From positions 84,257-148,256 of the forward strand of contig CADAQM010000005.1 in assembly GCA_902790135.1 (NCBI GenBank): a DNA stretch of 64,000 nucleotides, read 5' to 3'. This document shows positions 47,027-63,074 of this stretch, piece after piece. The notes below the pieces were generated by a model that saw nothing but the letters and a program-made list of their open reading frames with translations, did no database searches and was not told the origin of the DNA. Positions within the stretch are counted from its first letter, which is position 1. The number at the start of each line of letters is the position of its first letter. Made by a program: the position numbers and the translations under genes. The DNA is from an uncultured Coriobacteriaceae bacterium (GTDB lineage: Bacteria; Actinomycetota; Coriobacteriia; Coriobacteriales; Atopobiaceae).

Positions 47027-47039
47027 GGCCACCCTCTCG

Positions 47040-47693
47040 CTACTCACGACGATCACCCGAGGCGAGGTAGAGCAGGGCATTGACTATGGACGCCGCCACA
47101 TTGGAGCCGCCCTTGCGCCCACGGGCCACGATATGCTCCGTGCCTGCGCGCATGATGAGCTCTTTCGACTCGACCACATTGACGAATCCCACCGGCACCC
47201 CGACGATCAGTGCAGGCGGTTCCATTGTTCCCTCCTCGAGCAGCTCATAGGTCCTGACCAGCGCCGTCGGGGCGTTGCCCACCGCAAGCACCAGGGGACC
47301 CTCGAGCGCTGCCGCGCGCTCCATGCTCACTGCAGAGCGCGTGAGCCCGCGCCGACGGGCCTCGTCGGCCACGTCCGCATCGGCGATAAAGGTGCGTGCG
47401 CTACCCCCAAAGCTGCCGAGCACGCGCTTGTTGATGCCCGCGGCCACCATGGAGGTGTCCGTGACCACAGTCGCCCCCGCACGCAAGGCCTCGATGCCCG
47501 CCTCCACGGCACGGGACGAGAAACAGAGCGTCTTGGCATACTCGAAGTCCGCGGTAGTGTGGATGACCCGCTTGAGCACGAGCTCCTCCTGCGGACTGAG
47601 GTCCGTTGGCCCCAGCTCTAGGCCGATAATCTCAAAGCTGCGCGCCTCGATCTCGGACGGCTTCACGTACGAGAGGCCTTCCAGTCTGCTCAT
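47040..47693 (-). CDS. cbiC: Cobalt-precorrin-8 methylmutase
   Basis: 217 residues. KPSEIEARSFEII near the N-terminus, RVIHTTADFEYAKTLCFS with the catalytic His, VVTDTSMVAAGIN, and ALVRTYELLEEG, ALIVGVPVGFVNVVESKE, GRKGGSNVAASIVNALLYLA are CbiC/CobH motifs. It shifts the methyl group from C11 to C12 to give cobyrinate. Starts four bases inside the cbiP stop. Confidence 0.95.
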   Translation of the reverse strand: MSRLEGLSYVKPSEIEARSFEIIGLELGPTDLSPQEELVLKRVIHTTADFEYAKTLCFSSRAVEAGIEALRAGATVVTDTSMVAAGINKRVLGSFGGSARTFIADADVADEARRRGLTRSAVSMERAAALEGPLVLAVGNAPTALVRTYELLEEGTMEPPALIVGVPVGFVNVVESKELIMRAGTEHIVARGRKGGSNVAASIVNALLYLASGDRRE

Positions 47694-49195
47694 AGTCCCT
47701 CCTCGATGATCCGATAGACGAGCTCCATGTCGAGGCTCCCGCGCACGCCAGCCGCCAGGGCGTCGTACTGCCCCTGCTTGTAGGCTGCCATGTCAAGCGC
47801 GACGGCTGCGGAGGCATCGAGCCCCTTTGCCTCGAGCAATGCCGCAACCAGCGCTTGGTTGACCTCGGGCCTGTCAAAGACCCCGTGCAGGTAGCAGCCG
47901 TAGACGTTGCCCCGTTGGCATCCGTCCGCTCGCCCAGTACCTCCCTGCGCAGAGAGCTCCATCAACGGACTGCCGCCCATGAGCTCGCTTGTGCCCATGT
48001 GAATCTCGTATCCGTCCACAGGCTGCGCCGAAAGACCCGCGAGCATCCCGTCTACCTGCATAAACGCGCCTTCAGAACGCACGGTTCGCTTCTCGGAGCC
48101 AAAGGTGGTGCGCACGGGCAGAAGCCCCATGCCCGCCAGCTCGCCGCCACCTTCGACGCCAGAGGGGTCCAAGATTCGCTCGCCGAGCATCTGATAACCG
48201 CCACAGATGCCCATGACCGGCGTACCGGCATGCGCCAGCTTGAGGATGGCCGCCTCCAGACCACTTGTGCGCAGCCACCGGAGGTCTGCCATTGTGGCCT
48301 TGGTGCCAGGCAGAATGACGAGGTCGGGCCTGCCGAGCTCGCGCACGCTGCCCACGTAGCGTACGCCCACGCCTGGTGCCGCCTCCAACGCGATGAAGTC
48401 GGTGAAGTTGGAAATCTTGGGCAGATGCACCACGGCCACGTCCACCGCTGCCCCACTCTGACGCGCACCTAGGCGCTCGGAGAGGCTGTCCTCGTCGTCG
48501 ATGTCCACGTACAGATAGGGCACCACGCCCGCCACCGGCACACCCATCTTGTCGCGCAGCACGTCCAGCCCCGGTTCGAGAATGGTCACGTCTCCACGGA
48601 ACTTGTTGACCACCGATGCCTTGACCAACGCGCGCTCGTCCTCATCCAGCAGCATCATGGTGCCGATGAGCTGGGCAAACACACCACCGCGATCGATGTC
48701 GCCCACCAGCAGCACCGGAGAGGCAGCCATCTTGGCCATGCCCATGTTTACGATGTCGTCCCTCTTGAGGTTGACCTCGGCCGGGCTGCCCGCCCCTTCG
48801 ATGAGGATGACGTCGTAGTCGGCGGCCAGCTCGCGATATGCGTCCATGATCTGGCCCCTAAGCGTGTGCTTGAAGGAAAAGTAGTCGCGTGCCTGCATGG
48901 TGCCGATGGGCTTGCCGCGCACGATCACCTGGCTGCCCGTGTCGGTGGTCGGCTTGAGCAGGATGGGGTTCATGGCGGAGACGGGCTCGATGCCCGCGGC
49001 CTCTGCCTGCATCACCTGTGCTCTGCCGATTTCCAAACCCTCGGCCGTGATGGCTGAGTTGAGCGCCATGTTCTGCGACTTGAAAGGCGCCACGCGTACG
49101 CCATCCTGCGCCAGCACGCGACAGAGGCCTGCCACCAGCAGGCTCTTGCCCACGCCCGACATCGTGCCCTGCACCATGAGTGCCTTGGCCGCCAT
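47690..49195 (-). CDS. cbiP: Cobyric acid synthase
   Basis: 501 residues from the ATG at 49195. ALMVQGTMSGVGKSLLVAGLCR (P-loop of the AAA-type ATPase), FKSQNMALNSAIT, EGAGSPAEVNLKRDDIVNMGMA, and a type 1 glutamine amidotransferase end with MGICGGYQMLG (Cys) and VYGCYLHGVFDRP (His). It amidates positions b, d, e and g. Its ATG overlaps the cobD-type stop by one base. Confidence 0.96.
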   Translation of the reverse strand: MAAKALMVQGTMSGVGKSLLVAGLCRVLAQDGVRVAPFKSQNMALNSAITAEGLEIGRAQVMQAEAAGIEPVSAMNPILLKPTTDTGSQVIVRGKPIGTMQARDYFSFKHTLRGQIMDAYRELAADYDVILIEGAGSPAEVNLKRDDIVNMGMAKMAASPVLLVGDIDRGGVFAQLIGTMMLLDEDERALVKASVVNKFRGDVTILEPGLDVLRDKMGVPVAGVVPYLYVDIDDEDSLSERLGARQSGAAVDVAVVHLPKISNFTDFIALEAAPGVGVRYVGSVRELGRPDLVILPGTKATMADLRWLRTSGLEAAILKLAHAGTPVMGICGGYQMLGERILDPSGVEGGGELAGMGLLPVRTTFGSEKRTVRSEGAFMQVDGMLAGLSAQPVDGYEIHMGTSELMGGSPLMELSAQGGTGRADGCQRGNVYGCYLHGVFDRPEVNQALVAALLEAKGLDASAAVALDMAAYKQGQYDALAAGVRGSLDMELVYRIIEEGL

Positions 49196-50223
49196 CAGAG
49201 CACCTCCCTGAGCACTGCCACGAGCAGCGCGTTCTGCTCTGGCGTGCGCACCGCCACGCGGTACCAGCCAGGTCCGAGTCCCACAAAGTTGTCGCACGCC
49301 CGCACCATCACCCCTCGTGCGAGAAGTGCCCTGCCCAAGCCCTCAGGTCCAAAAAGGAGCAGGTAGTTGGCATCAGAGGGAACGACGCGCAGGCCAAGGG
49401 TCGTGAGGGCGCCAATCAGCCGCTCGCGCTCGACGCGCACGAGCGCACGGCTCCGCTCCAGATAGCTCCCCTCTCCCGCACAAGCCACGCCGGCAACCTG
49501 CGCCGGTACCGAGACCGCCCACGGTTGCCCCGTCTGACGAAGCTTCTCCGCAAGCGCATCGTCCGCACAGAGCGCATAGCCCAGCCGGAGCCCCGCCAGG
49601 CAGAAAGACTTGGTGAACGCCTTGATGATCACCAGGTGGGGATGGTCTTGGAGCAGGTCGCTGGAGCCAGCCCCCTCGGAAAGGTCGATGAAGCACTCGT
49701 CGAGTGCGACCACCGCCCCAACCTCCGCCGCGCGCGCGAGGCAGGCCTCAAGGGTCGTCCGATTGAGGCACCTGCCGGTCGGATTGTTGGGGTTGGCAAG
49801 AAACACGAGGTCAACGCCCTGCTCGATGGCTAAAGCAGCATCCTCCCCAAGGACAAAGCCGTCTCGCTCGCGCAGAAGGGCGACGCACGCCTCCACCCCC
49901 AGCCGCGCCAGGGCCTGCTCATATCCGCCATAGCAGGGAGCAAACACGAGCGCCCGTTGCGGGTTAACCACCTGGCAGAGGCGCGCGATCGCATCGGTCG
50001 CCCCGGCGCAGGGCACCACCCACGCCTCATCTACCTGCTCAAAGTCAGCCAGTGCCCTCACAAGCTCACGTGCATACGGATCGGGGTAGAACTCGCAGGC
50101 ATCGACCGACGCAAGCAGCGCCTCTCGTGCCGCCTTCGGCATGCCCAAGGGATTCAGGCTTGCGGAAAAGTCAACCACACCCGGATGGGTGTAGATGTCT
50201 CCCCCATGCTCGAAGCGCTTCAC
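49195..50223 (-). CDS. cobD: Threonine-phosphate decarboxylase-like aminotransferase (CobD/CobC type)
   Basis: 342 residues from a GTG at 50223 (GGGAGG upstream). FEHGGDIYTHPGVVDFSASLNPLGMP, YPDPYARELVRALA, NPNNPTGRCLN, IIKAFTKSFCLAGLRLGYAL with the PLP Lys. It makes (R)-1-amino-2-propanol phosphate from threonine phosphate for the aminopropanol arm. The upstream part of the frame to 50553 overlaps cbiB in another frame and is excluded. Confidence 0.94.
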   Translation of the reverse strand: MKRFEHGGDIYTHPGVVDFSASLNPLGMPKAAREALLASVDACEFYPDPYARELVRALADFEQVDEAWVVPCAGATDAIARLCQVVNPQRALVFAPCYGGYEQALARLGVEACVALLRERDGFVLGEDAALAIEQGVDLVFLANPNNPTGRCLNRTTLEACLARAAEVGAVVALDECFIDLSEGAGSSDLLQDHPHLVIIKAFTKSFCLAGLRLGYALCADDALAEKLRQTGQPWAVSVPAQVAGVACAGEGSYLERSRALVRVERERLIGALTTLGLRVVPSDANYLLLFGPEGLGRALLARGVMVRACDNFVGLGPGWYRVAVRTPEQNALLVAVLREVL

Positions 50224-50224
50224 G

Positions 50225-51199
50225 CTACCACCTCCCCAGAGCCTTGCGCACCAGAACGCCCAGGGCAATGCAGAGCAAGAGGGTCGCAATCGAGGTCGCC
50301 GTGAGCAAGCGGTTGGCGCGCACGATGTCCTCGGGCTCGATGGGACGGGCGGCATCTCCGATCGTGGGCTTGTCGTGCAACACCCCAAAGTAGCTGGCAG
50401 GGCCTGCAAGCTGTACGCCGAGCGCACCAGCGCAGGCTGCCTCGGGATGGGCCGAGTTGGGCGACGCATGGCGCAGGCGGTCGCGCAAGAAGACGCGCCA
50501 GGCGCCACGACCGTCCAGGCCCACGAGCGGTGCCACCAGGCACATGAGCGCACCCGTCAGGCGCGCCGGCATCCAATTGAGCACGTCATCGAGCCTTGCC
50601 GCCGCCGTGCCAAAGAAGCGATAGCGGTCGTTCACGTAGCCGACCATCGAGTCCATCGTGTTGACGGCCTTGTAGAGCACCCCGGCAGGCGCACCGCCAA
50701 GAGCCATAAAGAGGAGTGGCGCCACGACCCCATCGGAGGTGTTCTCGGCCACAGTCTCCACGGCCGCTCGCGTCACGCCCGCCTCGTCCAGCGCCGCCGT
50801 GTCGCGCCCCACGATCATCGAGACGGCCGTGCGTGCGGCAGCGAGGCCGTCGTTTTGGAGGGCGTCATAGACGCGTCTGGCCTCGATGCGCAGCTGCATG
50901 GCCGCAATCATCTGATAGCAGACGAAGCTCTCCACCATAAAGGCAAGCCACGGCGAGACGAGTCCCGCGAGCCAAAGCACCAGCGCTGACGTACCACATG
51001 AGAGGCCGACAACCAGAGCAACCAGCACCACTCCCGCTGTGCGCTCGCCCCTGGGCGTGGCGGGAAAGACCGCGCGCAGCATCCGCTCGGCCCAAGCGAT
51101 GAGCCTGCCGATCAGCCGGATGATGTGCGGCATGCTATAGGGGTCGCCAAAGAGGGCATCCAAGGCAAAACCGCAGATGAGGGCAGCCAGATGGATCAT
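50225..51199 (-). CDS. cbiB: Adenosylcobinamide-phosphate synthase
   Basis: 324 residues, membrane protein. FALDALFGDPYSMPHIIRLIGRLIAWAE near the start, VETVAENTSDGVVAPLLFMALGGAPAGVLYKAVNTMDSMVGYVNDRYRFFGTAAARLDDVLNWMPARLTG in the middle is the classic CbiB signature. It joins the aminopropanol arm to adenosylcobyric acid. The ATG is at 51199; a GTG six bases earlier is possible. Confidence 0.95.
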   Translation of the reverse strand: MIHLAALICGFALDALFGDPYSMPHIIRLIGRLIAWAERMLRAVFPATPRGERTAGVVLVALVVGLSCGTSALVLWLAGLVSPWLAFMVESFVCYQMIAAMQLRIEARRVYDALQNDGLAAARTAVSMIVGRDTAALDEAGVTRAAVETVAENTSDGVVAPLLFMALGGAPAGVLYKAVNTMDSMVGYVNDRYRFFGTAAARLDDVLNWMPARLTGALMCLVAPLVGLDGRGAWRVFLRDRLRHASPNSAHPEAACAGALGVQLAGPASYFGVLHDKPTIGDAARPIEPEDIVRANRLLTATSIATLLLCIALGVLVRKALGRW

Positions 51200-52581
51200 G
51201 GGCACCCCGCCTTACCAGCTGATGCATAAGATGCGCAGGCAACCACGAAGCGCCTTGTCGCCTCGGGACATGCCGCAAGGTAGAGGTGCGGATAGCCCGC
51301 ATAGAGCGTCGGACTTGCCACCACACAGTCCCAGCCACGCGAGCTCTGTGGCTTCTGGGCATAGAAGGCGTCGCCTGGCTGTTCGCTGTCCCAGTAGTGG
51401 AACTCGTGGGCTGGCAGGCACTCGCCGGCGTTTGCAAGCAGGCTGTCCCGCCGAGCGGTCAGGGTCACGTAGCCAAATCGCCCTAGTCTGCCGAGACCAA
51501 AGCTCGCGCCAGACACGGCGCCTACCATGGGCCACGACACTCCATCTGCATCCTCGAGCGCCTCGTGCAGGTACATGAAGCCCCCGCACTCCGCCACGGT
51601 GGGCATGCCCGCCGCAATAGCCTCCCGTATTTCCTCTCGCAGGCTCTCGTTGGCCGAGAGACGTGCCGCATGCAGCTCGGGGTAGCCACCGCCCAAGTAG
51701 AGGCCGCTGGTGCCTTCGGGCAGGTGTCGGTCCTCCAGGGGCGAGAAGCGTACCAGCCGTGCGCCAAACCTCTCGAGCAAGGCAAGAGCATCCTCGTAAT
51801 AGAAGTTGAAGGCCTCGTCGAAGGCCACAGCGATCGTGGTGGCATCCGAGCGGCGTTCAGGCAACTCGCGCGGCTGATAGACCAGATCGGGAGCCTCGTG
51901 CGCAAGCGCGAGCAGGCCGTCCACGTCGACGGTTTGCTCGAGCGAGTCGGCAATCAGGTCAACCCGCTGGCTGAGGTCGGCCACCTCTCCCGCTGCAACC
52001 AATCCCAGGTGGCGGCTCTTAAGACCCGCACCCGCGAGCTCGGGCACATGGCCCAGAACCCGCACGCCTGTCTCCCGCTCCGCCAGCGCCTTCATCGTGG
52101 GGTAGTAGCCCTTTGACACGCGGCTCAGGATGACCCCCGCCACGTGCGAGGGCTCGCGGAAGTGCTTGAAGCCTGCCACCTCGGCGGCTACCGAAAGGGC
52201 TCGGCCTCGCCCGTCCACCACGAGCACGGCAGGCGTCTGGGTCGCACGCGCCAGGTCGTATGCCGACGCGTCATGACCCTGTGCGATACCGTCGTAGTAG
52301 CCCATGGCGCCCTCGATGACCGTGAGGTCAGCGGAGCGCGCACCTTCGGCAATCAACCCGCACACCAGATTCTCCCCCGCAAAGAAGAGATCAAGGTTGC
52401 GCGACGGCACGCCCAGCACGCGCGTGTGCATCATCGGGTCAAGGTAGTCGGGACCACACTTGGCAGCCTGCACCTTCAGACCGCGACGGTCGAGCAGTCG
52501 CAGCAGCCCACAGGTGAGCGTGGTCTTTCCCACCCCACTTGCGGTGCCGGCAATCAGTATGCGCGGAGCCGCTACCTGCAT
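51196..52581 (-). CDS. cbiA: Cobyrinate a,c-diamide synthase
   Basis: 461 residues from the ATG at 52581 (GAGGGGCAGG upstream). ILIAGTASGVGKTTLTCGLLRLL (P-loop), CGPDYLDPMMHTRVLG, IEGAMGYYDGI, then a glutaminase part with TVAECGGFMYLHEAL (Cys) and EFHYWDSE (His). It amidates the a and c acetate chains using glutamine or ammonia. Overlaps cbiB by four bases. Confidence 0.95.
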   Translation of the reverse strand: MQVAAPRILIAGTASGVGKTTLTCGLLRLLDRRGLKVQAAKCGPDYLDPMMHTRVLGVPSRNLDLFFAGENLVCGLIAEGARSADLTVIEGAMGYYDGIAQGHDASAYDLARATQTPAVLVVDGRGRALSVAAEVAGFKHFREPSHVAGVILSRVSKGYYPTMKALAERETGVRVLGHVPELAGAGLKSRHLGLVAAGEVADLSQRVDLIADSLEQTVDVDGLLALAHEAPDLVYQPRELPERRSDATTIAVAFDEAFNFYYEDALALLERFGARLVRFSPLEDRHLPEGTSGLYLGGGYPELHAARLSANESLREEIREAIAAGMPTVAECGGFMYLHEALEDADGVSWPMVGAVSGASFGLGRLGRFGYVTLTARRDSLLANAGECLPAHEFHYWDSEQPGDAFYAQKPQSSRGWDCVVASPTLYAGYPHLYLAACPEATRRFVVACASYASAGKAGCP

Positions 52582-53804
52582 TCCTGCCCCTCTTCCGTCG
52601 TAGGGCCACACGCCGTGACGAGATACACGGGATTGGCCGCTTGCATCAGGTGGTAGCGCCCCGCCTCGCGCGCCTTGGCAACACTCAGCTGGACGATGTC
52701 GACATCGTGCAGGGAGAGCGAGCGCACGCACGCGAGCGCGTCGGAGACAGTCTCTAGCGTGACGGCTGCAATGCAGATGCGCACAGCCGGATTTGCCGTG
52801 AGGGCCGCGGATACGATCTCGGCAAGCGCACCTGAGGACCCGCCCGCGAAGACGCGATCGGGTGCGGGCAGCCCTGTGAGCGCATCGGGCGCCTCACCTG
52901 CGACGATATGCAGATTGGTGAGTCCATGCTCCTGTCGGTTGGCCTCGATGAGCGCGCAGGCCTGCTCGGTGCGCTCGACGGCAAACACCTGCCCGGCACA
53001 GGCAGCGCGCGCCAGTTCGACGCTCACCGACCCAGTGCCCGCGCCCACATCCCACACCGTGTCGTCAGGGCGCACGCGCAGCTTGCACACGGCCAGCTCG
53101 CGCACCTCCTCCTTGGTCATCGGGACCTCACCGCGGACAATGGCATCGTCACGCAGGTGCGGCGCTCGCACGCCGGGAATGATGGGCGCGTCGTTGAGCA
53201 CGAGCATCACGGCTAGGCTCTCAAACGGCCGCCCAGCAAGCTCAAAGGCCGTACCAGCGGTGATGTGCTCATCGGGATACGACAGGCGCTCCCCCACCCA
53301 CACGCTCACATCACCCAGCCCTCGTTCCACGAGCAGTGCACAGAGCTCGCCGGCGCGCACGGACCCACCCGTGAGCACAAAGGTCTTGGCGTGCGTCTGC
53401 ACGGCACCAGCCAGGTTGTGCGCGCGGCCGTGGGCTGACACCACATAGGTGTCCTGCCAGGTGCAACGCAGGCGGGAGCAGAGGTACGCGAGCGACGAGA
53501 TGCCAGGTATGACCTCCACGTCCCATCCCTCGAGCAGCGGATAGAGGCTCGTTGCCCCACTGTAGAAGCCGACGTCTCCACTCATGACCACACTTGCGAC
53601 GGCCTCCGGCGCCTCGCGCAGCTCCTCAACGATGCGCGCACTGGCGACAAGCGCGACCATGCGTGCATCACGCTCACCAAGCGCCTCGAGCAGGCGTGAC
53701 GACCCGATGATCAAATCGCTCCGGTCAAGCGCCGAGCGCGCAGCCACCGTGAGCGTGTCCGGGTTGCCCATGCCCATGCCAATGACGTAGACCTTAGAGA
53801 CCAT
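52572..53804 (-). CDS. cbiET: Fused cobalt-precorrin-7 methyltransferase / decarboxylating methyltransferase
   Basis: 410 residues from the ATG at 53804. Residues ~1-205 are CbiE, a tetrapyrrole methyltransferase (VYVIGMGMGNPDTLTVAAR, VMSGDVGFYSGATSLYPLL, VEVIPGISSLAYLCSRL). Residues ~215-410 are CbiT, a class I methyltransferase (WDVGAGTGSVSVELARAA, VFAVERTEQACALIEANRQ). Together they methylate C5 and C15 and decarboxylate ring C's acetate. This equals CobL architecture. Overlaps cbiA by ten bases. Confidence 0.94.
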   Translation of the reverse strand: MVSKVYVIGMGMGNPDTLTVAARSALDRSDLIIGSSRLLEALGERDARMVALVASARIVEELREAPEAVASVVMSGDVGFYSGATSLYPLLEGWDVEVIPGISSLAYLCSRLRCTWQDTYVVSAHGRAHNLAGAVQTHAKTFVLTGGSVRAGELCALLVERGLGDVSVWVGERLSYPDEHITAGTAFELAGRPFESLAVMLVLNDAPIIPGVRAPHLRDDAIVRGEVPMTKEEVRELAVCKLRVRPDDTVWDVGAGTGSVSVELARAACAGQVFAVERTEQACALIEANRQEHGLTNLHIVAGEAPDALTGLPAPDRVFAGGSSGALAEIVSAALTANPAVRICIAAVTLETVSDALACVRSLSLHDVDIVQLSVAKAREAGRYHLMQAANPVYLVTACGPTTEEGQECR

Positions 53805-54558
53805 AGCGATCCTCCAGGAGTTGCTGTGCCTCGGACAAGAGCAGCCCCGGCTCATCCTCTGGCCGCTCGATGACCACCAAGTCGATACCGCGCGCCTGCG
53901 CTGCCCGCACTTTCTCGTCAAACCCACCCGCGGGACCTGACTCCTTGGTCACCAGATGGGCGATGTCCAGCTCGTCGATCAGCGCACGGTTCATCTGCTC
54001 GGAGAAGGGTCCCTGCATGGCAATCACGTGACTCGTGGGAATGCCCAGCTCGTACGTGCGCTCGAGCGAGGAGACCACTGGCAGCACGCGCACGTAGAGG
54101 CGCTCGGCAAAGTCGGGGATGAGCTCGGTGAAGGTGGCGAGGTCCTTGCTGCCCGTGGTGAGCAGGATGTTGCCCTCGGTGCCCGCAAGCAGCTGCGCGG
54201 CCTCACGGGCATCGCTAGCGCCCGTCCACGAAACATCACCGCCAGGCACCCCCTCGCGGATCACGCGCACCACATCCACCCCGTGACGCTTGCCCAGGGC
54301 GGCCACACTTTGGGAGATGTGCCGCGCGTAGGGATGCGTCGCGTCCACGATGCAGGCAAAGTCGTGCTCTGCCATCAGCCGGTCCTTCTGCTCGTCGGTG
54401 AGCGGACCCTCGAGGGCCTGCACACGCGGCCCCTGCGCAATCAGGCTTGCGCCATAGGCAGTCGCGGTACATGCCACAATGTCGCAGCTGCCGCGCATTG
54501 CCAGCCACTCGACCAGCCGCCGTCCCTCGGAGGTGCCTCCAAACACGAGCACGTCCAT
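53794..54558 (-). CDS. cbiJ: Cobalt-precorrin-6A reductase
   Basis: 254 residues from the ATG at 54558. VLVFGGTSEGRRLVEWLA, CIVDATHPYARHISQSV, ILLTTGSKDLATF, YVRVLPVVSSLERTYELGIP, VIAMQGPFSEQMNRALI and VTKESGPAGGFDEKVRAAQARGIDLVVIERP are the CbiJ/CobK signature. It reduces precorrin-6A with NAD(P)H. The stop is ten bases inside cbiET. Confidence 0.95.
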   Translation of the reverse strand: MDVLVFGGTSEGRRLVEWLAMRGSCDIVACTATAYGASLIAQGPRVQALEGPLTDEQKDRLMAEHDFACIVDATHPYARHISQSVAALGKRHGVDVVRVIREGVPGGDVSWTGASDAREAAQLLAGTEGNILLTTGSKDLATFTELIPDFAERLYVRVLPVVSSLERTYELGIPTSHVIAMQGPFSEQMNRALIDELDIAHLVTKESGPAGGFDEKVRAAQARGIDLVVIERPEDEPGLLLSEAQQLLEDRYGL

Positions 54559-54559
54559 C

Positions 54560-56353
54560 CTAGGCACCTCCCTCGCCGTAGCCACGAGGGGTCACCATGC
54601 GCCCATCGATTGCCCGCGTCTTCGAGTTACCCACAAACACGCAGGTAAACATGTCCACCTGAGCGTCGCGCAGCTCGCCGAGCGTGAGGATGCAATGCTC
54701 CTCGCCGCTGCGACCGATGTTACGGACATAACCGCAGACGGTCTCGGGCGAGCGATGGGAAAGCAGGATGTCGCAGGCGCGCCGCAGGTGGTCGGGACGG
54801 TGCTTGGAGGCGGGGTTGTAGAGGCTGATGCAGAAGTCCGCCTGTGCTGCTGCAACGAGCCTCCTCTCAATCAGCTCCCAGGGCGTCATGAGATCAGAGA
54901 GCGATATGGTGCACCAGTCGTGCATGAGCGGTGCGCCCAGCACGGCCGCACCGCCGTTGGCCGCCGACACGCCAGGAATGACCGCCACATCGACGCCTTC
55001 GTACTCCTCCGCCAGCTCCAGTAGCAAGCCCGCCATGCCATAGATGCCCGGATCGCCCGAGCAGACCATAGCCACGCGCCTGCCCTCCTGCGCGCGCTCG
55101 AGCGCCAGCCGGCAGCGCTCTGCCTCCTTGCGCATGGGCGTCGCCAGTAGCTCCTTATGGGGATAGTCATTTCGAATCAGGTTGATGTAGGTGGTGTAGC
55201 CGACGATGAGGTCGGCCGCATCCAGGGCCCCACGCGCGCGCAGGGTCATGTCGTCCGCGCCTCCCGGACCGAGGCCCACGCAGGTCAACGTCCCAGGCCC
55301 AGATCCGAGCGAGCCTGGCAGAGCAAGGTGCGGCTCGGACGCAGCCAGGGCCACCGTCACGCCATTGACACTCCGCTTGGACAGAAGCAGCGACTGGCCA
55401 CCAGCGCATGCGGCACGCTCGCAGACGTTGTCCACGCCAACCGTATGCAGCACGAACTCTGACGAGGAGAAATCGCCAGACACCGCCTGGAGCTGGTCCG
55501 CGCTGTAGAGCTGCAGCTCGCAGCCACACTGGTGAGCAAATGCGCGCAGACCTTGCTCGTCGGCCTTCACGTCTATCGAGGCGATGGCGGAGAGCGCAAC
55601 GGGTGCCACCCGTGCCTCGTCCAGGCAACGCCGCACGAGCGCCGCGATCTTCTCTGAGGGCGTGCCGCGCTTGCAGCCAATGCCTGCCACCACCGTATGC
55701 GGCACCAGGTGCAGCGTGGTCGCGAAGGGCTCCTCCGAATCGTCGTAGGAGATGCATATGCCCAGTTCAAGCCCCTCGGCATCCGCACCCGCCACCAAGC
55801 CTGCGGGGAGCGGGCCCGCAAGGGGAAAGGCGCTCGCCATGCCCACCTGCTCGCCCTCGAGCAGCGCCGCCGAGACGAGCTTGGCCGCCTCGCGCTCCAC
55901 GATGACCAAGCCACGCTCGCGTGCCCACTCGTCCACCGCAAAGACATGGTTGACGTCGGTTGCGGTCGAGACGGCAGCCTGACCGCCACAGATGTCCGCG
56001 ACCCGGCGCGCAAGCTGGTTGGCGCCACCCACGTGCCCCGAGAGCAGGGGCACCACGATACGCCCCGCCTCGTCCACGCAAACCACCGCAGGGTCGCTTA
56101 TCTTATCCGCGACATGCGGTGCGATTGCGCGCACGGCGATTCCGGTGGCCGAGACGAACAGCAACGCCTCAGCCTGCGCAAATGCACGCGCAGCCCAGCT
56201 GCCAAGATCGTCCAGGACGCAGACGTCATCGCCATCGGCAAGCCGCTCGGGAGCCGACAGCTCCACAAGGCAGCCGTCCTCCACAAGCGCGCACGCGATG
56301 TGCCGCATGAGGCAGAGGCCCCTGCGCGTGAATGCGACCGCAGCCACCCTCAT
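54560..56353 (-). CDS. cbiGH: Fused cobalt-precorrin-5A hydrolase / precorrin-3B C17-methyltransferase
   Basis: 597 residues. CbiG occupies ~1-345: LLFVSATGIAVRAIAPHVADK, VPLLSGHVGGANQLARRVADI and a C-terminal GIGCKRGTPSEKI domain. CbiH occupies ~357-597: TCVGLGPGGADDMTLRARGAL, VCSGDPGIYGMAGLLLEL, VIPGVSAANGGAAVLGAPL, YNPASKHRPDHLRRACDILL, GRSGEEHCILTL. The fusion couples ring contraction (CbiH) and removal of the two-carbon fragment (CbiG). One base lies between its stop and the cbiJ start. Confidence 0.93.
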   Translation of the reverse strand: MRVAAVAFTRRGLCLMRHIACALVEDGCLVELSAPERLADGDDVCVLDDLGSWAARAFAQAEALLFVSATGIAVRAIAPHVADKISDPAVVCVDEAGRIVVPLLSGHVGGANQLARRVADICGGQAAVSTATDVNHVFAVDEWARERGLVIVEREAAKLVSAALLEGEQVGMASAFPLAGPLPAGLVAGADAEGLELGICISYDDSEEPFATTLHLVPHTVVAGIGCKRGTPSEKIAALVRRCLDEARVAPVALSAIASIDVKADEQGLRAFAHQCGCELQLYSADQLQAVSGDFSSSEFVLHTVGVDNVCERAACAGGQSLLLSKRSVNGVTVALAASEPHLALPGSLGSGPGTLTCVGLGPGGADDMTLRARGALDAADLIVGYTTYINLIRNDYPHKELLATPMRKEAERCRLALERAQEGRRVAMVCSGDPGIYGMAGLLLELAEEYEGVDVAVIPGVSAANGGAAVLGAPLMHDWCTISLSDLMTPWELIERRLVAAAQADFCISLYNPASKHRPDHLRRACDILLSHRSPETVCGYVRNIGRSGEEHCILTLGELRDAQVDMFTCVFVGNSKTRAIDGRMVTPRGYGEGGA

Positions 56354-57129
56354 GGTTGATCACATCCCTCTACCTGCTGCGATGCCTCCCTGAAGCCATG
56401 GGAGAAGCTGGGGTCGTAGAGACGCGAGCGCTCGTAGGTGTCGCCCAGAAAGCTCCCAACGGTCACCAATGCCGTATGCGTAATAGCATGCTCGCGCGCA
56501 CACTGCGCCAGCGTGCCCACCGTGCAGCGGTAGACAGCCTCGTCGGGCCAGGTCGCACGATACACGATGGCCGCCGGCGTGTCCGGGCTGTAGCCTCCGG
56601 CCACGAGCTCCTTCTGCGCGCCTTCGAGCAGGCTCGCCGAGAGAAAGAGCACCATCGTGCAGCCGTGAGAGGCCATGAGGCGCAGCTTCTCGCCTGCAGG
56701 CACGGGAGTGCGCCCCTCCATTCGGGTGACGATGAGCGACTGCGAGACCTCTGGCAACGTGTACTCCGCGCGAAGGGCAGCCGCGGCTCCCATGAGCGAG
56801 GACACCCCCGGCACCACGTCGTAGGGAATCCCCAGCTCGTCAAGGGCGTCCATCTGCTCGCGATGCGCCCCATAGAGCGATGGGTCACCCGAGTGCAGCC
56901 TCACACAGGTCTTGCCCTCCCGCTCGGCCGCACGCATCACTGCCAGGACGTCCTCCAGAGTCATGCGCGCGGAATCATGCAGCTCACATCCTGGCTTGCA
57001 GTTGGAGAGCAGCTCCGTGTTGATGAGCGAGCCCGCGTAGATGACCACGTCCGCCTCCTGGAGCAGACGCACGCCGCGCAGCGTGATGAGATCAGCCGCA
57101 CCAGGGCCGGCTCCCACAAAGTGAATCAT
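56350..57129 (-). CDS. cbiF: Cobalt-precorrin-4 C11-methyltransferase
   Basis: 259 residues. FVGAGPGAADLITLRGVRLLQEADVVIYAGSLIN, VRLHSGDPSLYGAHREQMDAL, VPGVSSLMGAAAALRAEYTLPE, VIVYRATWPDEAVYRCTVG are typical CbiF/CobM motifs. It transfers a methyl from SAM to C11. It overlaps cbiG-H and cbiD by four bases each. Confidence 0.96.
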   Translation of the reverse strand: MIHFVGAGPGAADLITLRGVRLLQEADVVIYAGSLINTELLSNCKPGCELHDSARMTLEDVLAVMRAAEREGKTCVRLHSGDPSLYGAHREQMDALDELGIPYDVVPGVSSLMGAAAALRAEYTLPEVSQSLIVTRMEGRTPVPAGEKLRLMASHGCTMVLFLSASLLEGAQKELVAGGYSPDTPAAIVYRATWPDEAVYRCTVGTLAQCAREHAITHTALVTVGSFLGDTYERSRLYDPSFSHGFREASQQVEGCDQP

Positions 57130-58277
57130 TCGATCTCCCCCTCACGTTCGTGGTAGGCCGCGAGAGCTGCGGCACCCGGCGTCCGTCCCAACAGCCCATA
57201 CTGGTTGGAAAACACCATCGCCTCCACCTGCAACCGACCAGCCGCGCGATAGGCAAGCTTGTCGGCAAGGCTCTTTATAAGAGATTCCATAGTTGCTTCT
57301 ACCAGACGCTCCTCGGCCAACGCATCGAGCATGGCATCGGCGGTCGGTGCAGCCATGATGCGGACGATAGTCTCGCGCGAGGCTCCCACCAGCGCCGCAT
57401 GCGCGGCCATCACTTCAGCTCGGCAGTCGGCCACGCGCGAGTGCGTGTTCATGATGCCACCAGCCACTTTGACCATCTTGCCGATATGGCCGACGACCAG
57501 CACATCCGCAAATCCGAGAAGCCCCGCCTCGTCAACCACGGCCCCAAGGTAGTTGGAACACTGCACCGCCCGCTCGAGCGAGAGATGCAGCATGGATGAG
57601 GCGAAGTCACGCCCGTAGTTGCCAGGGACCACCAGCAGGTGCTTGGCTCCTGTCGAGCGCAGCACCGAGAGCTCGAGCTTGAGCGAGGCAACCAACGCGT
57701 CCTCGCTCATGGGTCGCACGATGCCAGAGGTGCCGAGCACCGAAATGCCACCCTCGATGCCCAGACGCGGGTTGAAGGTGCGTGTGGCAAGCTCACCGCC
57801 TGCGGGAATGGAGATCTCCACCGCAAGGCCACCCGCATAGCCCGCCGCCTCGGTAGCATCTCGTGCGGCACGGGCGATCATCTCGCGGGGAACCGAGTTG
57901 ATGGCAGCGGCTCCCACCGGCTGGTCAAGCCCTGCACGGGTCACGCGTCCCACGCCGGCACCCCCGTCGATGGAGATGCCGGGCTTGTCGGTGCACGTCA
58001 CCCTTGCCCAGACCAGCACGCTGTCGGTCACGTCCGGGTCGTCACCGGCATCCTTGCGCACGGCGCAGCATGCCCAGCCTGGCCCCTCGTCATGCTCCTC
58101 CACGTCCACGCCCACTTCGATGCCAGAGGGGGTGGAGATCACGACCGCGGGCACGAGCGCGCGTGAGAGCAGCAGCCCTGCGGCCGCACGCGTGGCGGCA
58201 GCAGCGCAGGTACCCGTGGTGTAGCCGCAGCGCAAGCGCTTGCCACCAGCGGATATGTAATGCTCGAGTCGCTGCAC
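57126..58277 (-). CDS. cbiD: Cobalt-precorrin-5B C1-methyltransferase
   Basis: 383 residues from a GTG at 58277 with AGGAGGT upstream, not the longer frame to 58676. RCGYTTGTCAAAATRAA, VTRAGLDQPVGAAAINSVPREMI, NPRLGIEGGISVLGTSGIVRPMSE, VVPGNYGRDFASSML, VLVVGHIGKMVKVAGGIMNTHSRVADCRAEV are the CbiD signature. It methylates C1 using SAM in the anaerobic pathway. It follows the transporter ATPase gene by eight bases. Confidence 0.95.
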   Translation of the reverse strand: MQRLEHYISAGGKRLRCGYTTGTCAAAATRAAAGLLLSRALVPAVVISTPSGIEVGVDVEEHDEGPGWACCAVRKDAGDDPDVTDSVLVWARVTCTDKPGISIDGGAGVGRVTRAGLDQPVGAAAINSVPREMIARAARDATEAAGYAGGLAVEISIPAGGELATRTFNPRLGIEGGISVLGTSGIVRPMSEDALVASLKLELSVLRSTGAKHLLVVPGNYGRDFASSMLHLSLERAVQCSNYLGAVVDEAGLLGFADVLVVGHIGKMVKVAGGIMNTHSRVADCRAEVMAAHAALVGASRETIVRIMAAPTADAMLDALAEERLVEATMESLIKSLADKLAYRAAGRLQVEAMVFSNQYGLLGRTPGAAALAAYHEREGEIE

Positions 58278-58285
58278 CTGACCTC

Positions 58286-59065
58286 CTAGCGTCTGTCTGC
58301 AGGCAGCTCCACGCTGCCCGTGGTCGCGTCGTACACACCGGGTTCCAAGTCGTACAGGGCATCGATGACCTCGGGCACGAAGACCTGCTCGGGCGAACCC
58401 TGCATCGTGATGTCGCCGTCCTTCACGCAGACCACCCAGTCGGAGATGCGGCGGGCAAGCGGAAGCTCGTGGAGTGACATCAGGATGCCCAGTCCGCGCG
58501 TCGCAACGAGTTGCCTGAGCACGCCCAGAAGCTCGATCTGATAGCGGATGTCGAGGTAGCTGGTGGGCTCGTCGAGCACGAGGAGCCGTGGCTCCTGGCA
58601 GATGGCCCGCGCGAGCAGCACCCGCTGGCGCTGCCCGTCCGAGAGCCGCATGAAGTCGTTTGTACGGAACTCCCACACGCCCACGAGCTCCATGGCCGCG
58701 CGCACGCGGTCGTGGTCATCGGGCGAGAGGATGCCGAGACGTCCCGTATGGGGCAGCCGACCCGTCTCCACCACATCCTCGCAGGTCATCAGGTCGGTTC
58801 GCAGCCGCTCGGTAAGCAGGACGGAGAGCTCCAGCGCCCGCTCGCGATCCGAGAGCTTGTCGAGGCGTCGCCCCGAGAGGTACGCCACGCCACCCAAGGG
58901 TGCCAGCTCTCCGGCAACCGTGCGTAGCAGCGTCGACTTGCCCGCACCGTTGGGCCCTATGAGCGTCACGATCTGCCCCGGCGTAACCGACAGATCGACG
59001 CCCGCAAGCAGCGGGGACGCCCCGTAGCCGACGGCCAGCTCCTCGGTCTTGAGCATGGGTTGCAT
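58286..59065 (-). CDS. FecE/BtuD-type ABC transporter ATPase
   Basis: 259 residues from the ATG at 59065, preceded by AGGAGG at the right distance; an ATG at 59092 is also in frame. LIGPNGAGKSTLLRTVAGEL (Walker A), RLSDGQRQRVLLARAI (signature), LLVLDEPTSYLDIRYQIELL (Walker B) and LMSLHELPLARRIS (H loop). It powers an FecCD-type importer for iron-siderophore, heme or cobalamin; the surrounding cbi operon and riboswitch favour cobalt, cobinoid or tetrapyrrole cargo. Confidence 0.92.
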   Translation of the reverse strand: MQPMLKTEELAVGYGASPLLAGVDLSVTPGQIVTLIGPNGAGKSTLLRTVAGELAPLGGVAYLSGRRLDKLSDRERALELSVLLTERLRTDLMTCEDVVETGRLPHTGRLGILSPDDHDRVRAAMELVGVWEFRTNDFMRLSDGQRQRVLLARAICQEPRLLVLDEPTSYLDIRYQIELLGVLRQLVATRGLGILMSLHELPLARRISDWVVCVKDGDITMQGSPEQVFVPEVIDALYDLEPGVYDATTGSVELPADRR

Positions 59066-59094
59066 GGCCTGTCCCTCCTCGCGTGCCGTCATCG

Positions 59095-60150
59095 CTAGTC
59101 CACCTGCCTTTGCCTGCCAAGCAGGATGGCGATGACCACAGGAGCGCCGAAAAGGGCCGTGACCGCCGAGATGGAGACCTCGGTCGGTGCCAGAGCCGTA
59201 CGCGCAATGAGATCGCATGCCAGGCAGAAGATGGCTCCTCCCAAGAAGGAGGCGGGTACGACCACCAGAGGCCGCGAGGTCCCCAGCAGGCGCTTGACGA
59301 TATGCGGTACCGCGATGCCCACGAAGCTGATGGGACCCGCAAACGCGGTAACGCAGGCGGCAAGCAGGCTCGAGAGCGCAATCAACCCCACGCGGAAAGC
59401 CCTCACGTTGACACCCACGCTCAGCGCATAGCGCTCCCCCAGCTGGTAGGCCGCCATGGGTTTTGAGAGCGCGAGGGCGAACGCTGCAGCGGGCACGACT
59501 ACCACCGTCAACGTCGCGACGTCCGTCCAATTGATGCCCGAGAAGCTTCCCTGGGACCAATTGCGCAGGTTGACGATGTTGGCGTCACTCGCAAACGTGA
59601 TGAGGAAGTCCGTGAGCGCGCTGCAGATGTAGCCCACCATCACACCAGCGACGATGAGCATGCTCGCCGACCTGATGCGCTGCGACACGACCAGCACGAA
59701 GACCATGGCTAGCGTTGACCCCACGAATGCGGCCAGCACGAGCATCCATGAGGTGAGGACGCCAGAGCTGCCCACCACGAGGATCATCGTGGCGGCAACC
59801 ACCAGTTTGGCGCCGCTTGAGACACCCAGGATGTAAGGGCCGGCGATGGGGTTGTTGAAGAAGGTCTGCAGCAGGAGGCCCGACAGCGCGAGGGCGCCGC
59901 CAAGAAGCCCCGCCGCTATGAGGCGTGGCAGACGGATGCTCCAGATGACCTGGTAAACGGTGCTAGTGCGGTCGCGCCCCGCAAGGACGTCCAGCAGGTC
60001 GGAGAGCGGCACATGCAGGCTGCCAAGACAGAGGTTGAGCGTCGCCGCCACAAGCAGCAATACCGCGAGCAGCGCAAACGTCGCGCACACCCGCGTGCGC
60101 CTCACGGCAAGTGGGTCTGCCTGAGCCTCTGTCCCCTGCGAATGCCTCAC
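59095..60150 (-). CDS. FecCD/BtuC-type ABC transporter permease
   Basis: 351 residues from a GTG at 60150. About nine to ten membrane helices. SIRLPRLIAAGLLGGALALSGLLLQTFFNNPIAGPYILGVSSGAKL is the hallmark of the FecCD family, with GPISFVGIAVPHIVKRLLG near the C-terminus, the ATPase coupling loop. It is the single permease (homodimer expected) of the adjacent ATPase and binding protein. Confidence 0.93.
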   Translation of the reverse strand: MRHSQGTEAQADPLAVRRTRVCATFALLAVLLLVAATLNLCLGSLHVPLSDLLDVLAGRDRTSTVYQVIWSIRLPRLIAAGLLGGALALSGLLLQTFFNNPIAGPYILGVSSGAKLVVAATMILVVGSSGVLTSWMLVLAAFVGSTLAMVFVLVVSQRIRSASMLIVAGVMVGYICSALTDFLITFASDANIVNLRNWSQGSFSGINWTDVATLTVVVVPAAAFALALSKPMAAYQLGERYALSVGVNVRAFRVGLIALSSLLAACVTAFAGPISFVGIAVPHIVKRLLGTSRPLVVVPASFLGGAIFCLACDLIARTALAPTEVSISAVTALFGAPVVIAILLGRQRQVD

Positions 60151-60164
60151 GTGCGCCCGTCCCC

Positions 60165-61367
60165 CTACGTCAGCTGGTGCAGGTAGGTGAGCTCGCCTGT
60201 CGCACCATGCAAGATCCGATTGAAGTCCAAGATGATGTCCCCGGAGGCCATCATCTGCTGATACATGTTCTGGTCGGTCACCCACACGTTGCCCGACTGC
60301 ACTGCCTTGAAGTCCGCCAGCAGCTCGTTTCGCGCAAGGAGGGCGTCTAGTGAGGTGATCGAGTCGTCAATCGAGGCGTTGTAGATCACGATGTCGGCGT
60401 CCTTCGCCGTGGCGTAGAACTGCTCCATCTGCATGGTCACGCTGCTTGAACCCGCGGTGGCAGGCTCCAGGCCGTTGAAGGCATAGGTGCCTCCCGCCTG
60501 CTCGATCATGGCGGTCACGTAGTCGCCCGGGCGGCGCACCACCGCCGCACCGTTGCTGTTGAGGTAGAAATACGCCACAGTCAGGTTCGTGGGTTCGCTG
60601 TCTATGGACGCCGCCTGGTCCACCTGCTGCTGGAACTTCTCCTGTGCGAGGTCGTCCAGACCGCACAGCGCCCCGTACAGGCGAATCCACTCGGCACGGC
60701 CGAGCGGCTCACTCTCGTAGCTCGAAAGCTCAACGAGCACGGGAATCCCCAGCTCCATGAGCTTGTCTCGCACGTCGGGCGTGTGGTTGATCATGGTGCT
60801 CTCGATGGCCAGGCGCACCCCACGTGAGACGAGCAGCTCGTAGTCGGGGGCGCGATACTTGCCGCCATACACCATCTCCCCCGCATCCATCGCCTCGCGT
60901 GCCGCGGGGATGCTCCAGTCGTCACGCTCGATGCCCGACACGCTGATCCGGTCGAGTGCCCCAAGCGCATCGAACAGGCACATCGAGTCGCTGGCCACGA
61001 GGTAGATGTCGCTCGCAGGCTGCTTGAGCACGATGATGTCATCGGAGAGCCCCTCCGGCGCGTCAGCTCCCTCGGGAACGATGAGGTAGCGATGGCCATC
61101 GGAGAGGCACGCCAGCTGATAGCCACCCTCAAAGTAATCGATGGTGAAGCGCCGCGCGTAGGCAAGCTCCATGGAGCCGATGGGCTCCCAGCCGCACCCG
61201 ATGTCGGTGTTGCGGAAGTCGTCCACCAGCTGGGTGCTGGGGCCTTCCTGGACTGTCGTGCCCTGTTCGGCAGATGCGGGGTCTTCCGTAGAGCGGCCGC
61301 AGCCTGCTGCCGGCAGAGCCAGGCAGCAGGCCAGGGTCAGTGCTATGAGGGCGGGCACTCGTCTCAT
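60165..61367 (-). CDS. ABC transporter substrate-binding lipoprotein (FecB/BtuF-like)
   Basis: 400 residues from the ATG at 61367. A lipobox (LALPAAGC) follows a short hydrophobic stretch, so the mature N-terminus is a lipidated Cys. The protein then shows two lobes of a periplasmic-binding protein type III: SDDIIVLKQPASDIYLVASDSMCLFDALGALDRISV and LVSRGVRLAIESTMINHTPDVRDKLMELGIPVLVELSSYESEPLGRAEWIRLYGAL, typical of FecB-like proteins with a helix linking the lobes. Ligand unknown; context suggests cobalt complexes, cobinoids or heme. Confidence 0.9.
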   Translation of the reverse strand: MRRVPALIALTLACCLALPAAGCGRSTEDPASAEQGTTVQEGPSTQLVDDFRNTDIGCGWEPIGSMELAYARRFTIDYFEGGYQLACLSDGHRYLIVPEGADAPEGLSDDIIVLKQPASDIYLVASDSMCLFDALGALDRISVSGIERDDWSIPAAREAMDAGEMVYGGKYRAPDYELLVSRGVRLAIESTMINHTPDVRDKLMELGIPVLVELSSYESEPLGRAEWIRLYGALCGLDDLAQEKFQQQVDQAASIDSEPTNLTVAYFYLNSNGAAVVRRPGDYVTAMIEQAGGTYAFNGLEPATAGSSSVTMQMEQFYATAKDADIVIYNASIDDSITSLDALLARNELLADFKAVQSGNVWVTDQNMYQQMMASGDIILDFNRILHGATGELTYLHQLT

Positions 61368-61379
61368 CGTCAAGATGCC

Positions 61380-61823
61380 TTATGAGGCGTCGGCATCCTC
61401 CGCCGGAGAGGCGAAGGTGATGGTGTGGTCATACCAGGTGTCACGACGGTGGCCAAAGGCTGCAACGGGCAGCTCCTCGTCCAAGGCGCTCACCGGAATG
61501 TCAAAGGTGTACTTGCCCTCGTCGTTGAGGTAGTAGTCGTATATGTCAGCGTCTTCGGCCGCCGCTGCCTCCTCAGCCGTGCCAAAGTACAGGCGCGAGA
61601 AGCCCTCGCCCGGCAGGACGAGCGTCGCGGTGTAGGTGCCATCCGCCACGGTCAGCTCGCACGAGTCCGCACGAAACATACTGGAGTCGGTGTCGACCTC
61701 GATTGCGTACGTACCGTCAGCGAGACCCGACTGCTGCTGGCCCGAGCACCCCATCAGAAGGATGCCCATGCCAACGATGAGCAGGACGGCAAAGAACATG
61801 CTGGCAAAGCGCTTGCGAATCAT
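61380..61823 (-). CDS. Lipoprotein with a DGTY-type domain
   Basis: 147 residues. The N-terminal VLLIVGMGILLMGC forms a lipobox. The rest is beta-rich: LADGTYAIEVDTDSSMF, CELTVADGTYTATLVLP, GKYTFDIPVSALDEELPV, HRRDTWYDHTITF. It shares TF(D/E)IPV-ALDE and the DGTY and L-V-DG-A-AT(I/L) stretches with the anchored protein at 42730-43308. It sits between the substrate-binding protein and cbiK, so it probably acts with the import system outside the membrane. NEAT-like function is a guess. Confidence 0.8.
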   Translation of the reverse strand: MIRKRFASMFFAVLLIVGMGILLMGCSGQQQSGLADGTYAIEVDTDSSMFRADSCELTVADGTYTATLVLPGEGFSRLYFGTAEEAAAAEDADIYDYYLNDEGKYTFDIPVSALDEELPVAAFGHRRDTWYDHTITFASPAEDADAS

Positions 61824-61856: not shown

Positions 61857-62765
61857 CTACAGGCTGTCGATGGCGTCCTTCACGTGCGCCACGTAGATGT
61901 CGTCGATGGTATCCATCTGGCCCAGGCCCTCGATAACGCAGGTGACCTCAAGTCCAGCCTTGGTCATCACCGAGATGAGCGACTCGGGATCCTCGGGATC
62001 TGCCATGTCGTTGTTGGCGTGATCGCCAGCGACGACCATGAACGGGCGCAGGATAACCTTCTTGAACCCGGCGTCGGTGACGGCCTTTACCGCATCGTCG
62101 AAGGTCGGGGTCGCCTCGACCGTCGTCACAAAGTAGTTGTCATAGCCAAGGTCGATAAAGACCTGCTGCATGGTGGCGTAGATGCCATTGGACTCGGCCT
62201 CGGTACCGTGGCCCATGAGGCAGACGGCGGTCTCCTCATCCTCGAGGCGCTCCATGCCGGCCTTGATGGCCTTGGCGACGGCTACCTGATCCTCCTCGGA
62301 GGAGAGCAGAGTCTTGCCGAGGGCGACCTTGTCAAACTTGTCCTCGTAGGTTGCCAGCGACTCCTTGACGTCGGTGTACTCGAAGCCATCCATCAGATGG
62401 GTCGGCTGAACGATGAGCTCCTTCACGCCATCGGCCACGATCTTGTCCATGGCCTCCTCGAAGTTGTCGATATGACGACCGGTGTCGGACTCGACGTGGT
62501 CGATGATGATCTGCGAGGTGAAAGCACGGCGCACGTCGTAGTCGGGGAAGGCCTCACGGATGTCGCTCTCGATGGCGCCGATGGTGATGTGACGGCTGGT
62601 GGGAAAGCTCGTGCCAAAGCTGGTGACGAGAATGACCGGCTTGGCGGCAGGTGCCGCGGCTCCGTCGGCAGAGGATGCGCCCGCGGCGCAGCCCGCGAGG
62701 GCGGCAAGGGTACCGGTTGCAGCGGTGCCCAAGAAGAGACGACGAGACATGGTTGACTGTGTCAT
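61857..62765 (-). CDS. cbiK: Sirohydrochlorin cobaltochelatase with Tat/lipoprotein signal
   Basis: 302 residues. The N-terminus SRRLFLGTAATGTLAALAGC has a twin-Arg motif and a lipobox, so the enzyme should be folded in the cytoplasm, exported by Tat and lipid-anchored outside. The remainder is CbiK: VTSFGTSFPTSRHITIGAIE, PTHLMDGFEYTDV, CLMGHGTEAESNGIYATM with the first metal His, and KVILRPFMVVAGDHANNDM with the second. CbiK inserts cobalt into sirohydrochlorin. Exported CbiK forms are known in Desulfovibrio. First gene of the operon, behind the riboswitch; SD AAGGGTAGG. Confidence 0.93.
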   Translation of the reverse strand: MTQSTMSRRLFLGTAATGTLAALAGCAAGASSADGAAAPAAKPVILVTSFGTSFPTSRHITIGAIESDIREAFPDYDVRRAFTSQIIIDHVESDTGRHIDNFEEAMDKIVADGVKELIVQPTHLMDGFEYTDVKESLATYEDKFDKVALGKTLLSSEEDQVAVAKAIKAGMERLEDEETAVCLMGHGTEAESNGIYATMQQVFIDLGYDNYFVTTVEATPTFDDAVKAVTDAGFKKVILRPFMVVAGDHANNDMADPEDPESLISVMTKAGLEVTCVIEGLGQMDTIDDIYVAHVKDAIDSL

Positions 62766-62770
62766 AACGA

Positions 62771-62945
62771 CCTACCCTTCTGGCCTTATGGCCATCGTGA
62801 GGGTAGGCAAGGACAGGTGGTATCGCGCCACCAACAGAGCGACTCCCGACAGATATGCCGGCGAGCATTGCGCCTTTAAGTACAGCGACGGCTGATCCGG
62901 AGTAGAACCGGAATCCTTTTAGCGAGGCCTTGCAGCTCGGTGACC
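62771..62945 (-). promoter_or_regulatory. Cobalamin riboswitch candidate with RBS-sequestering hairpin
   Basis: On the minus strand the leader reads UAAAAGGAU, CCGGUUCUACUCCGG, then CAGCCGUCGCUGUA, which aligns with the consensus (AAAAGGGAA, CCGG...UCCGG, GCUGCCCCCGCAACUGUA). Further on are GCCGGC...GUCGGGAGUCGC (cf. GCCACU...GGGAAGGC) and a GGUGGCGCGAUACCACC hairpin in the place of the usual box. The last part is an expression platform: CCTACCCT (62807-62800) pairs with AGGGTAGG (62778-62771), with TGGCC/GGCCA inside, so the SD of cbiK is locked. Match to consensus is by eye and imperfect in the box. Confidence 0.65.
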
Positions 62946-62971
62946 GTACCCTCGATTCATATGATGCTGTC

Positions 62972-62980: not shown

Positions 62981-63074
62981 GGTCGGTCGCGGGCATTGCC
63001 CCGGCCAAGTCGCACACGCCATCCTTCCATGTGTGATACTGGTTTGGTCCGAGCAACTGAGGAAGGGACACACG

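Follow-up and report, generated by a model that had tools for sequence, protein, structure and literature searches.

The window, as we call the whole stretch of 64,000 nucleotides that was analysed, comes from an uncultured Coriobacteriaceae bacterium and carries on its minus strand a cbiK gene (61857..62765) whose 302-aa product is predicted, from its family profile, signal motif and aligned histidines, to be a Tat-exported, lipid-anchored chelatase of the CbiK family. The Pfam domain PF06180 (CbiK) covers residues 45-299 at its full length (E 4e-74), with a score of 249.7 bits against a curated cut-off of 26.2. The cut-off of the NCBIfam equivalog SiroCoChCbiK was not reached (194.9 vs 400 bits) and, in consequence, we regard the product as a CbiK homologue and not as a certified equivalog. 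His186 and His249 align with His145 and His207 of Salmonella CbiK (1qgo), which are catalytic, active-site residues in that enzyme (PMC7689651). By this alignment both catalytic histidines appear intact in the window CbiK, which would probably insert cobalt into sirohydrochlorin.

The first-pass annotation had read a twin-arginine plus lipobox signal on CbiK and this signal (SRRLFLG...LAGC) is indeed present and kept among relatives. The N-terminus, MTQSTMSRRLFLGTAATGTLAALAGC-AAG, combines a Tat motif of the form SRRxFLG (here SRRLFLG), a hydrophobic core and a LAGC lipobox, and TatC is encoded in the window's genome (PF00902, E 2.3e-55). The window has 288 open frames of 100 aa or more; the Tat-plus-lipobox pattern, when matched anywhere in the frame, is found in 2 of them, and cbiK is the only recognisable gene that has it at the N-terminus. 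A signal arising by chance was considered and ruled out, because the pattern is rare within the window and kept in relatives. The host is taken to have a single membrane on the basis of taxonomy, its nearest named relatives being Atopobiaceae/Coriobacteriaceae.

On the same strand, the order cbiK, DGTY lipoprotein (61380..61823), substrate-binding protein, permease and ATPase, and then the cbi genes from cbiD onwards, agrees with the earlier remark that the importer and the DGTY lipoprotein are encoded right beside cbiK. The importer set (Peripla_BP_2, FecCD and ABC, of FecBCD/BtuFCD type) is complete in the window: it comprises a substrate-binding lipoprotein of the FecB/BtuF type (60165..61373, minus; PF01497, E 6e-26; lipobox LPAAGC by eye), a FecCD/BtuC-type permease (59095..60285, minus; PF01032, E 3.6e-80; true start probably internal to the ORF) and an ABC ATPase (58286..59560, minus; PF00005, E 2.4e-27; domain beginning near residue 166, true start inside the ORF). 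The best NCBIfam match of the permease is BtuC, below the cut-off, and a search by sequence for PDB relatives of the substrate-binding protein that might point to its ligand gave no match.

The biosynthetic genes, all on the minus strand, encode CbiD (57126..58676; TIGR00312 over the cut-off, domain from about residue 148), a CbiF-type methyltransferase (56350..57129; PF00590, CbiF being assigned by position and reading), a CbiG-CbiH fusion (54560..56353; PF11760, PF01890, PF00590), CbiJ (53794..54585; PF02571, E 4e-66), a CbiE-CbiT fusion (52572..53927; PF00590 and a methyltransferase domain), CbiA (51196..52731; PF01656, PF07685), CbiB (50225..51205; PF03186, E 3e-107), a CobD-like protein of aminotransferase fold (49195..50223; an open frame assigned by reading alone), CbiP (47690..49297; PF07685, E 2e-52), CbiC (47040..47693; PF02570, E 2e-74), CobT (45950..47080; PF02277) and CobU and CobS (43680..44974; PF02283, PF02654). 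As had been noted before, the later Cbi enzymes lack signals: no signal peptide was seen by eye in any of the listed Cbi ORFs. The order cbiK-NEAT-SBP-FecCD-FecE followed by cbi genes recurs in Coriobacteriia and Clostridia; among relatives the module is sometimes divergent from the cbi genes, and some loci have no cbi genes in the stretch examined. No CbiM signature was found in the window or in the stretches examined of loci L040-L139, as would fit a chelation step that needs no cobalt inside the cell, and the cbi operons of these loci and of the window may go without a CbiM-type cobalt importer.

Upstream of cbiK lies a structured leader RNA of around 200 nt (62764..62963, minus), possibly a divergent riboswitch. 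An alignment of 16 sequences has an invariant core, and the leader model R1 matches strongly ahead of cbiK both in the window and in 16 related loci. Its outer stem, GAGGGTA/TACCCTC, competes with a hairpin that is built from its 3' strand ahead of the start codon, and this hairpin displays some covariation (3 pairs changed on both sides, 6 cells, 0/500 shuffles). No Rfam family matched the leader, and the cobalamin riboswitch RF00174 was rejected as a candidate since the window has no match to it. Among relatives, RF00174 precedes cbiK in Clostridia and in a single Coriobacteriia genome (L046, L078, L082, L084, L087, L089, L090, L092 and L093), and the related locus L070 scores 26.7 bits, just under gathering. 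Parts of the leader look by eye like the cobalamin riboswitch core, and that it is a divergent B12-type riboswitch is our guess. Divergently from cbiK, the plus strand has a 267-aa ORF at 63033-63836 with no Pfam or NCBIfam match.

What kind of protein is the DGTY lipoprotein? On the predicted models, both this protein (type 1) and a membrane-anchored protein with a hydrophobic C-terminal segment encoded at the end of the operon (42730..43434, minus; type 2) have the NEAT fold of Gram-positive heme shuttles. AF2 modelled type 1 with a pLDDT of 91.5 from an alignment of 44 domains and type 2 with a pLDDT of 95.0 from 22 domains. The top Foldseek matches of the type 1 model are NEAT domains of heme-binding proteins (E 1.5e-4), with VIA-align Z-scores of up to 10.3 over 102 residues, and NEAT proteins also lead the PDB matches of type 2 (best Foldseek E 2.7e-5). 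PF05031 (NEAT) is the commonest Pfam family among the 44 type 1 homologues, being matched by 14/44 type 1 and 8/22 type 2 members at E up to 1. The gathering score of this family (32.8 bits) is not reached by the window proteins, since type 2 scores 15.0 bits and type 1 has no match, and hence we term them NEAT-like. Types 1 and 2 are fused as one polypeptide in many Clostridia (for example L078, L082, L087 and L092), which ties the 42730-43434 protein to the system. The heme-ligand motif YxxxY is absent from both and its place is taken by [RK]xxWY in type 1 and HxxxY in type 2. We located the axial-Tyr site from the profile alignment in type 1 and by reading in type 2: 43/44 type 1 domains have K/R there (position 94), and 13/22 type 2 domains have His. 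The ligand may be a tetrapyrrole with more carboxylates than heme.

Export of CbiK is clear from its sequence and conserved. Our sample consisted of 149 Coriobacteriia genomes and 80 further cbiK loci from named contigs. A close relative of the window CbiK was found in 19 of the 149 genomes, and 18 of these proteins (17 besides that of the window's genome) have the RR and lipobox; the remaining one, from G105 (L046), has a Sec-type lipoprotein signal. A signal-like hydrophobic segment precedes the CbiK domain in 78 of the 80 further loci, a few of these segments (for example in L065, L068 and L075) lying upstream of the true start, with a Tat motif visible in L065 and L068; the other two start at the end of a contig or with an in-frame stop codon. 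The type of export differs, being mostly Tat with lipobox in Coriobacteriia and Sec, with lipobox or none, in Clostridia. The signal-less paralogues of the CbiK2 type have no such hydrophobic segment. Two unusual architectures were also observed: a tandem pair of CbiK domains in one exported protein (L084, L086, L111, L117, L119, L128, L132 and L135), and Eggerthellaceae exported proteins of about 2,400 residues with a CbiK domain inside (L110 4151-11473 and L137 4394-11584).

Where does the substrate of this chelatase come from? HemB, HemC and CobA are over the cut-off in the same 5 of 32 exported-CbiK genomes and missing from the other 27, and precorrin-2 dehydrogenase is over the cut-off in 7/32 and below it or absent in 25/32; many of these genomes are MAGs and the absence counts rest on profile cut-offs. 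Both the window's genome (96.6% complete) and G121, a single contig that is 99% complete, are without HemB, HemC, CobA and precorrin-2 dehydrogenase. Sub-cut-off matches to TIGR01469 in the window's genome were rejected as CobA because they map to CbiF and CbiG-CbiH of the cbi operon and to CbiL. CbiL is present, with 193.7 bits for TIGR01467 against an NCBIfam cut-off of 163.25, and the pathway would accordingly begin with cobalt-factor II. Because HemB, HemC and CobA are missing, neither precorrin-2 nor sirohydrochlorin can be made and the substrate must come from outside; the lack of CobA, in turn, means that no precursor earlier than precorrin-2 is usable. By gene content, the organism would be a precorrin-2 (sirohydrochlorin) auxotroph that has kept the corrin pathway.

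The exported chelatase follows that pathway closely. In the 149 Coriobacteriia genomes, exported CbiK is found in 19 and CbiD in 20, with an overlap of 19 (Fisher p 4e-23 by genome and 3e-8 by genus, the latter being the fairer figure because genomes are related). The sole exception, G052, has CbiD without exported CbiK, and it has CobA; CobA is found in 1/19 of the Coriobacteriia genomes with exported CbiK. In the wider set, 48 of the 49 genomes that encode an exported CbiK also have CbiD. Apart from the window's genome, the 18 Coriobacteriia genomes with exported CbiK have one CbiK each and no second class II chelatase over the cut-off; CbiX was considered as a hidden internal chelatase in them and discarded, since its over-cut-off matches fall in the same cbiK gene. 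A signal-less CbiK occurs in 3/5 of the CobA-positive genomes with exported CbiK, as expected if a self-made precursor needs an internal chelatase, and CobA-positive G105 and G160 have the exported module but no second CbiK.

The window's genome itself encodes a second, signal-less CbiK (CbiK2; L008 8770-9585), which is accompanied by its own binding protein, FecCD permease and ATPase beside the sulfite reductase genes AsrA and AsrC (L008 3017-9585, G000:C15). Similar CbiK2 loci elsewhere carry sulfite-reductase-like proteins, and judging from these neighbours the CbiK2 branch likely has a siroheme role, in an organism without CobA. At two loci (L051 9709-11043 and L054 9059-10612) CbiK2 carries a fused domain that resembles precorrin-2 dehydrogenase, an assignment for which the profile test covered L051 only.

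We think it probable that the module is a surface salvage system for the ring precursor of B12. The NEAT-fold lipoproteins on the outside of the membrane would capture sirohydrochlorin (factor II) released by neighbours, lipid-anchored CbiK would load it with cobalt there, and the FecBCD-type importer would bring in the cobalt-sirohydrochlorin. Once in the cytoplasm, the complex would join the pathway at the CbiL step, and the vitamin would be completed by the Cbi/Cob enzymes that this operon encodes. The export signal, catalytic residues, NEAT fold, linkage, missing precursor genes, and CbiL with the later enzymes are the computed basis of this model; from them we infer sirohydrochlorin as the ligand, metal insertion before import, and the order NEAT, CbiK, binding protein. 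The first-pass annotation had pointed out that cobalt insertion outside the membrane would require the product to be re-imported. The puzzle of exporting a ring only to re-import it does not arise, since without HemB, HemC, CobA and precorrin-2 dehydrogenase the ring is not made inside and no export step is needed. Against salvage, 5 of the 32 genomes with the module, among them G105 and G160 with their single CbiK, can make their own precorrin-2, and the signal-less CbiK2 of the window's genome could in principle load cobalt inside. Our literature search returned no documentation of free extracellular sirohydrochlorin in the gut.

Other readings of the same genes have to be weighed against precursor salvage. 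It is unlikely, in our view, that cobalamin or cobinamide is what the importer and the NEAT proteins carry and that exported CbiK merely binds or passes on a corrinoid. The closeness of the permease to BtuC and the cobalamin riboswitches ahead of the module in relatives speak for such corrinoid uptake; nevertheless, a salvage importer would be expected in genomes without ring synthesis, and none of the sampled CbiD-negative Coriobacteriia carries the module. Corrinoid uptake also leaves unexplained both the intact chelatase residues and the precursor source of ring-makers without CobA. The earlier suggestion that the importer carries a tetrapyrrole rather than cobalamin appears the more plausible, with a precursor as the inferred ligand. 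We hold it to be rather improbable that the system acquires heme or iron, with CbiK as a lipoprotein that binds heme or removes iron, a role proposed for IhtB of P. gingivalis. The heme-binding FetB (9b86), which we take to be IhtB of P. gingivalis, is a CbiK homologue, and NEAT domains bind heme in other Gram-positives. The Iht system has, moreover, the same set of parts (PMC10913741). However, the module described here is part of a cbi operon, its occurrence matches that of CbiD almost completely, and in relatives it is preceded by B12 riboswitches; in addition, K/R (type 1) or, in most cases, His (type 2) stands in place of the axial Tyr of the YxxxY motif.

The two remaining possibilities accept a chelatase and differ from precursor salvage in its substrate or in its place of action. 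That siroheme, instead of sirohydrochlorin, is scavenged and CbiK swaps its iron for cobalt seems quite improbable. Siroheme is a common protein cofactor, the NEAT fold and the genetics fit it equally well, and nothing in our analysis separates it from sirohydrochlorin; on the other hand, we know of no established case of iron removal by class II chelatases. Ordinary cytoplasmic insertion, in which CbiK acts before its export or stays partly inside and sirohydrochlorin comes from an unrecognised internal source, is very improbable: Tat substrates fold inside the cell and the Cbi enzymes are cytoplasmic, with no signals seen, but the several export designs (Tat-lipo, Sec-lipo and Sec without lipobox), the CbiK domains inside 2,400-aa exported proteins and the absence of HemB, HemC and CobA all argue against it. 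Returning to precursor salvage, we see about even chances for a broader proposal, according to which many anaerobic gut Coriobacteriia and Clostridia would be sirohydrochlorin salvagers, sirohydrochlorin would be a shared community metabolite that is NEAT-trapped, cobalt-loaded outside and imported as the complex, anaerobic B12 synthesis would have its first committed step outside the cytoplasm, and the CbiK2 and FecBCD set beside sulfite reductase genes would serve siroheme.

How does this system compare with those already known? We found no report in the literature of an exported CbiK together with NEAT proteins. A close precedent, to which the first-pass annotation had aptly referred, is the periplasmic CbiKP of Desulfovibrio vulgaris (2xvx, 2xvy; phmmer E 2e-29 to 2xvx), likewise an exported cobaltochelatase of CbiK fold, although its host, unlike the window organism, has two membranes. 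In the CbiK tree, CbiKP appears to group with cytoplasmic CbiKs, apart from the Gram-positive exported proteins, but at a point where long branches meet. The Iht system of P. gingivalis (IhtA-E) shares the CbiK-like lipoprotein, binding protein, permease and ATPase (PMC10913741); it includes a TonB receptor and is regarded as a heme/iron uptake system, whereas the window system has no outer membrane and comes with NEAT proteins and a B12 operon. Citing earlier work, PMC6461909 describes this species as being without precorrin-2 synthesis. Iht may salvage the same precursor in a two-membrane host and not take up heme. Our model would offer a reason for exported cobaltochelatases, whose role in P. 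gingivalis has been discussed as heme/iron. The NEAT heme relays (Isd, IsdX and Hbp2) have the same predicted fold, handle tetrapyrroles at the surface and are linked to a FecBCD-type importer; in contrast to them, the window proteins lie under the Pfam gathering score, have no YxxxY and are paired with a chelatase and B12 genes.

Like the tetrapyrrole precursor salvagers defined by Shelton et al. (PMC6461909), the window organism has a complete corrin pathway without the early precursor genes. The tested cases of that study take up ALA, whereas the window organism is also without CobA, which would leave precorrin-2 or a later compound as the only usable starting point. If this is correct, sirohydrochlorin is predicted to be a new cross-fed compound in gut communities, and organisms whose genomes are scored as B12 producers by their cbi genes may have to obtain the ring precursor from others. 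In this respect, a need for B12 has been noted in Collinsella aerofaciens although its cbi set is full, and precorrin-2 auxotrophy was suggested as one possible reason, with no mechanism (PMC6593275); surface salvage of sirohydrochlorin would name one for such bacteria, which have a full corrin pathway and yet need the vitamin.
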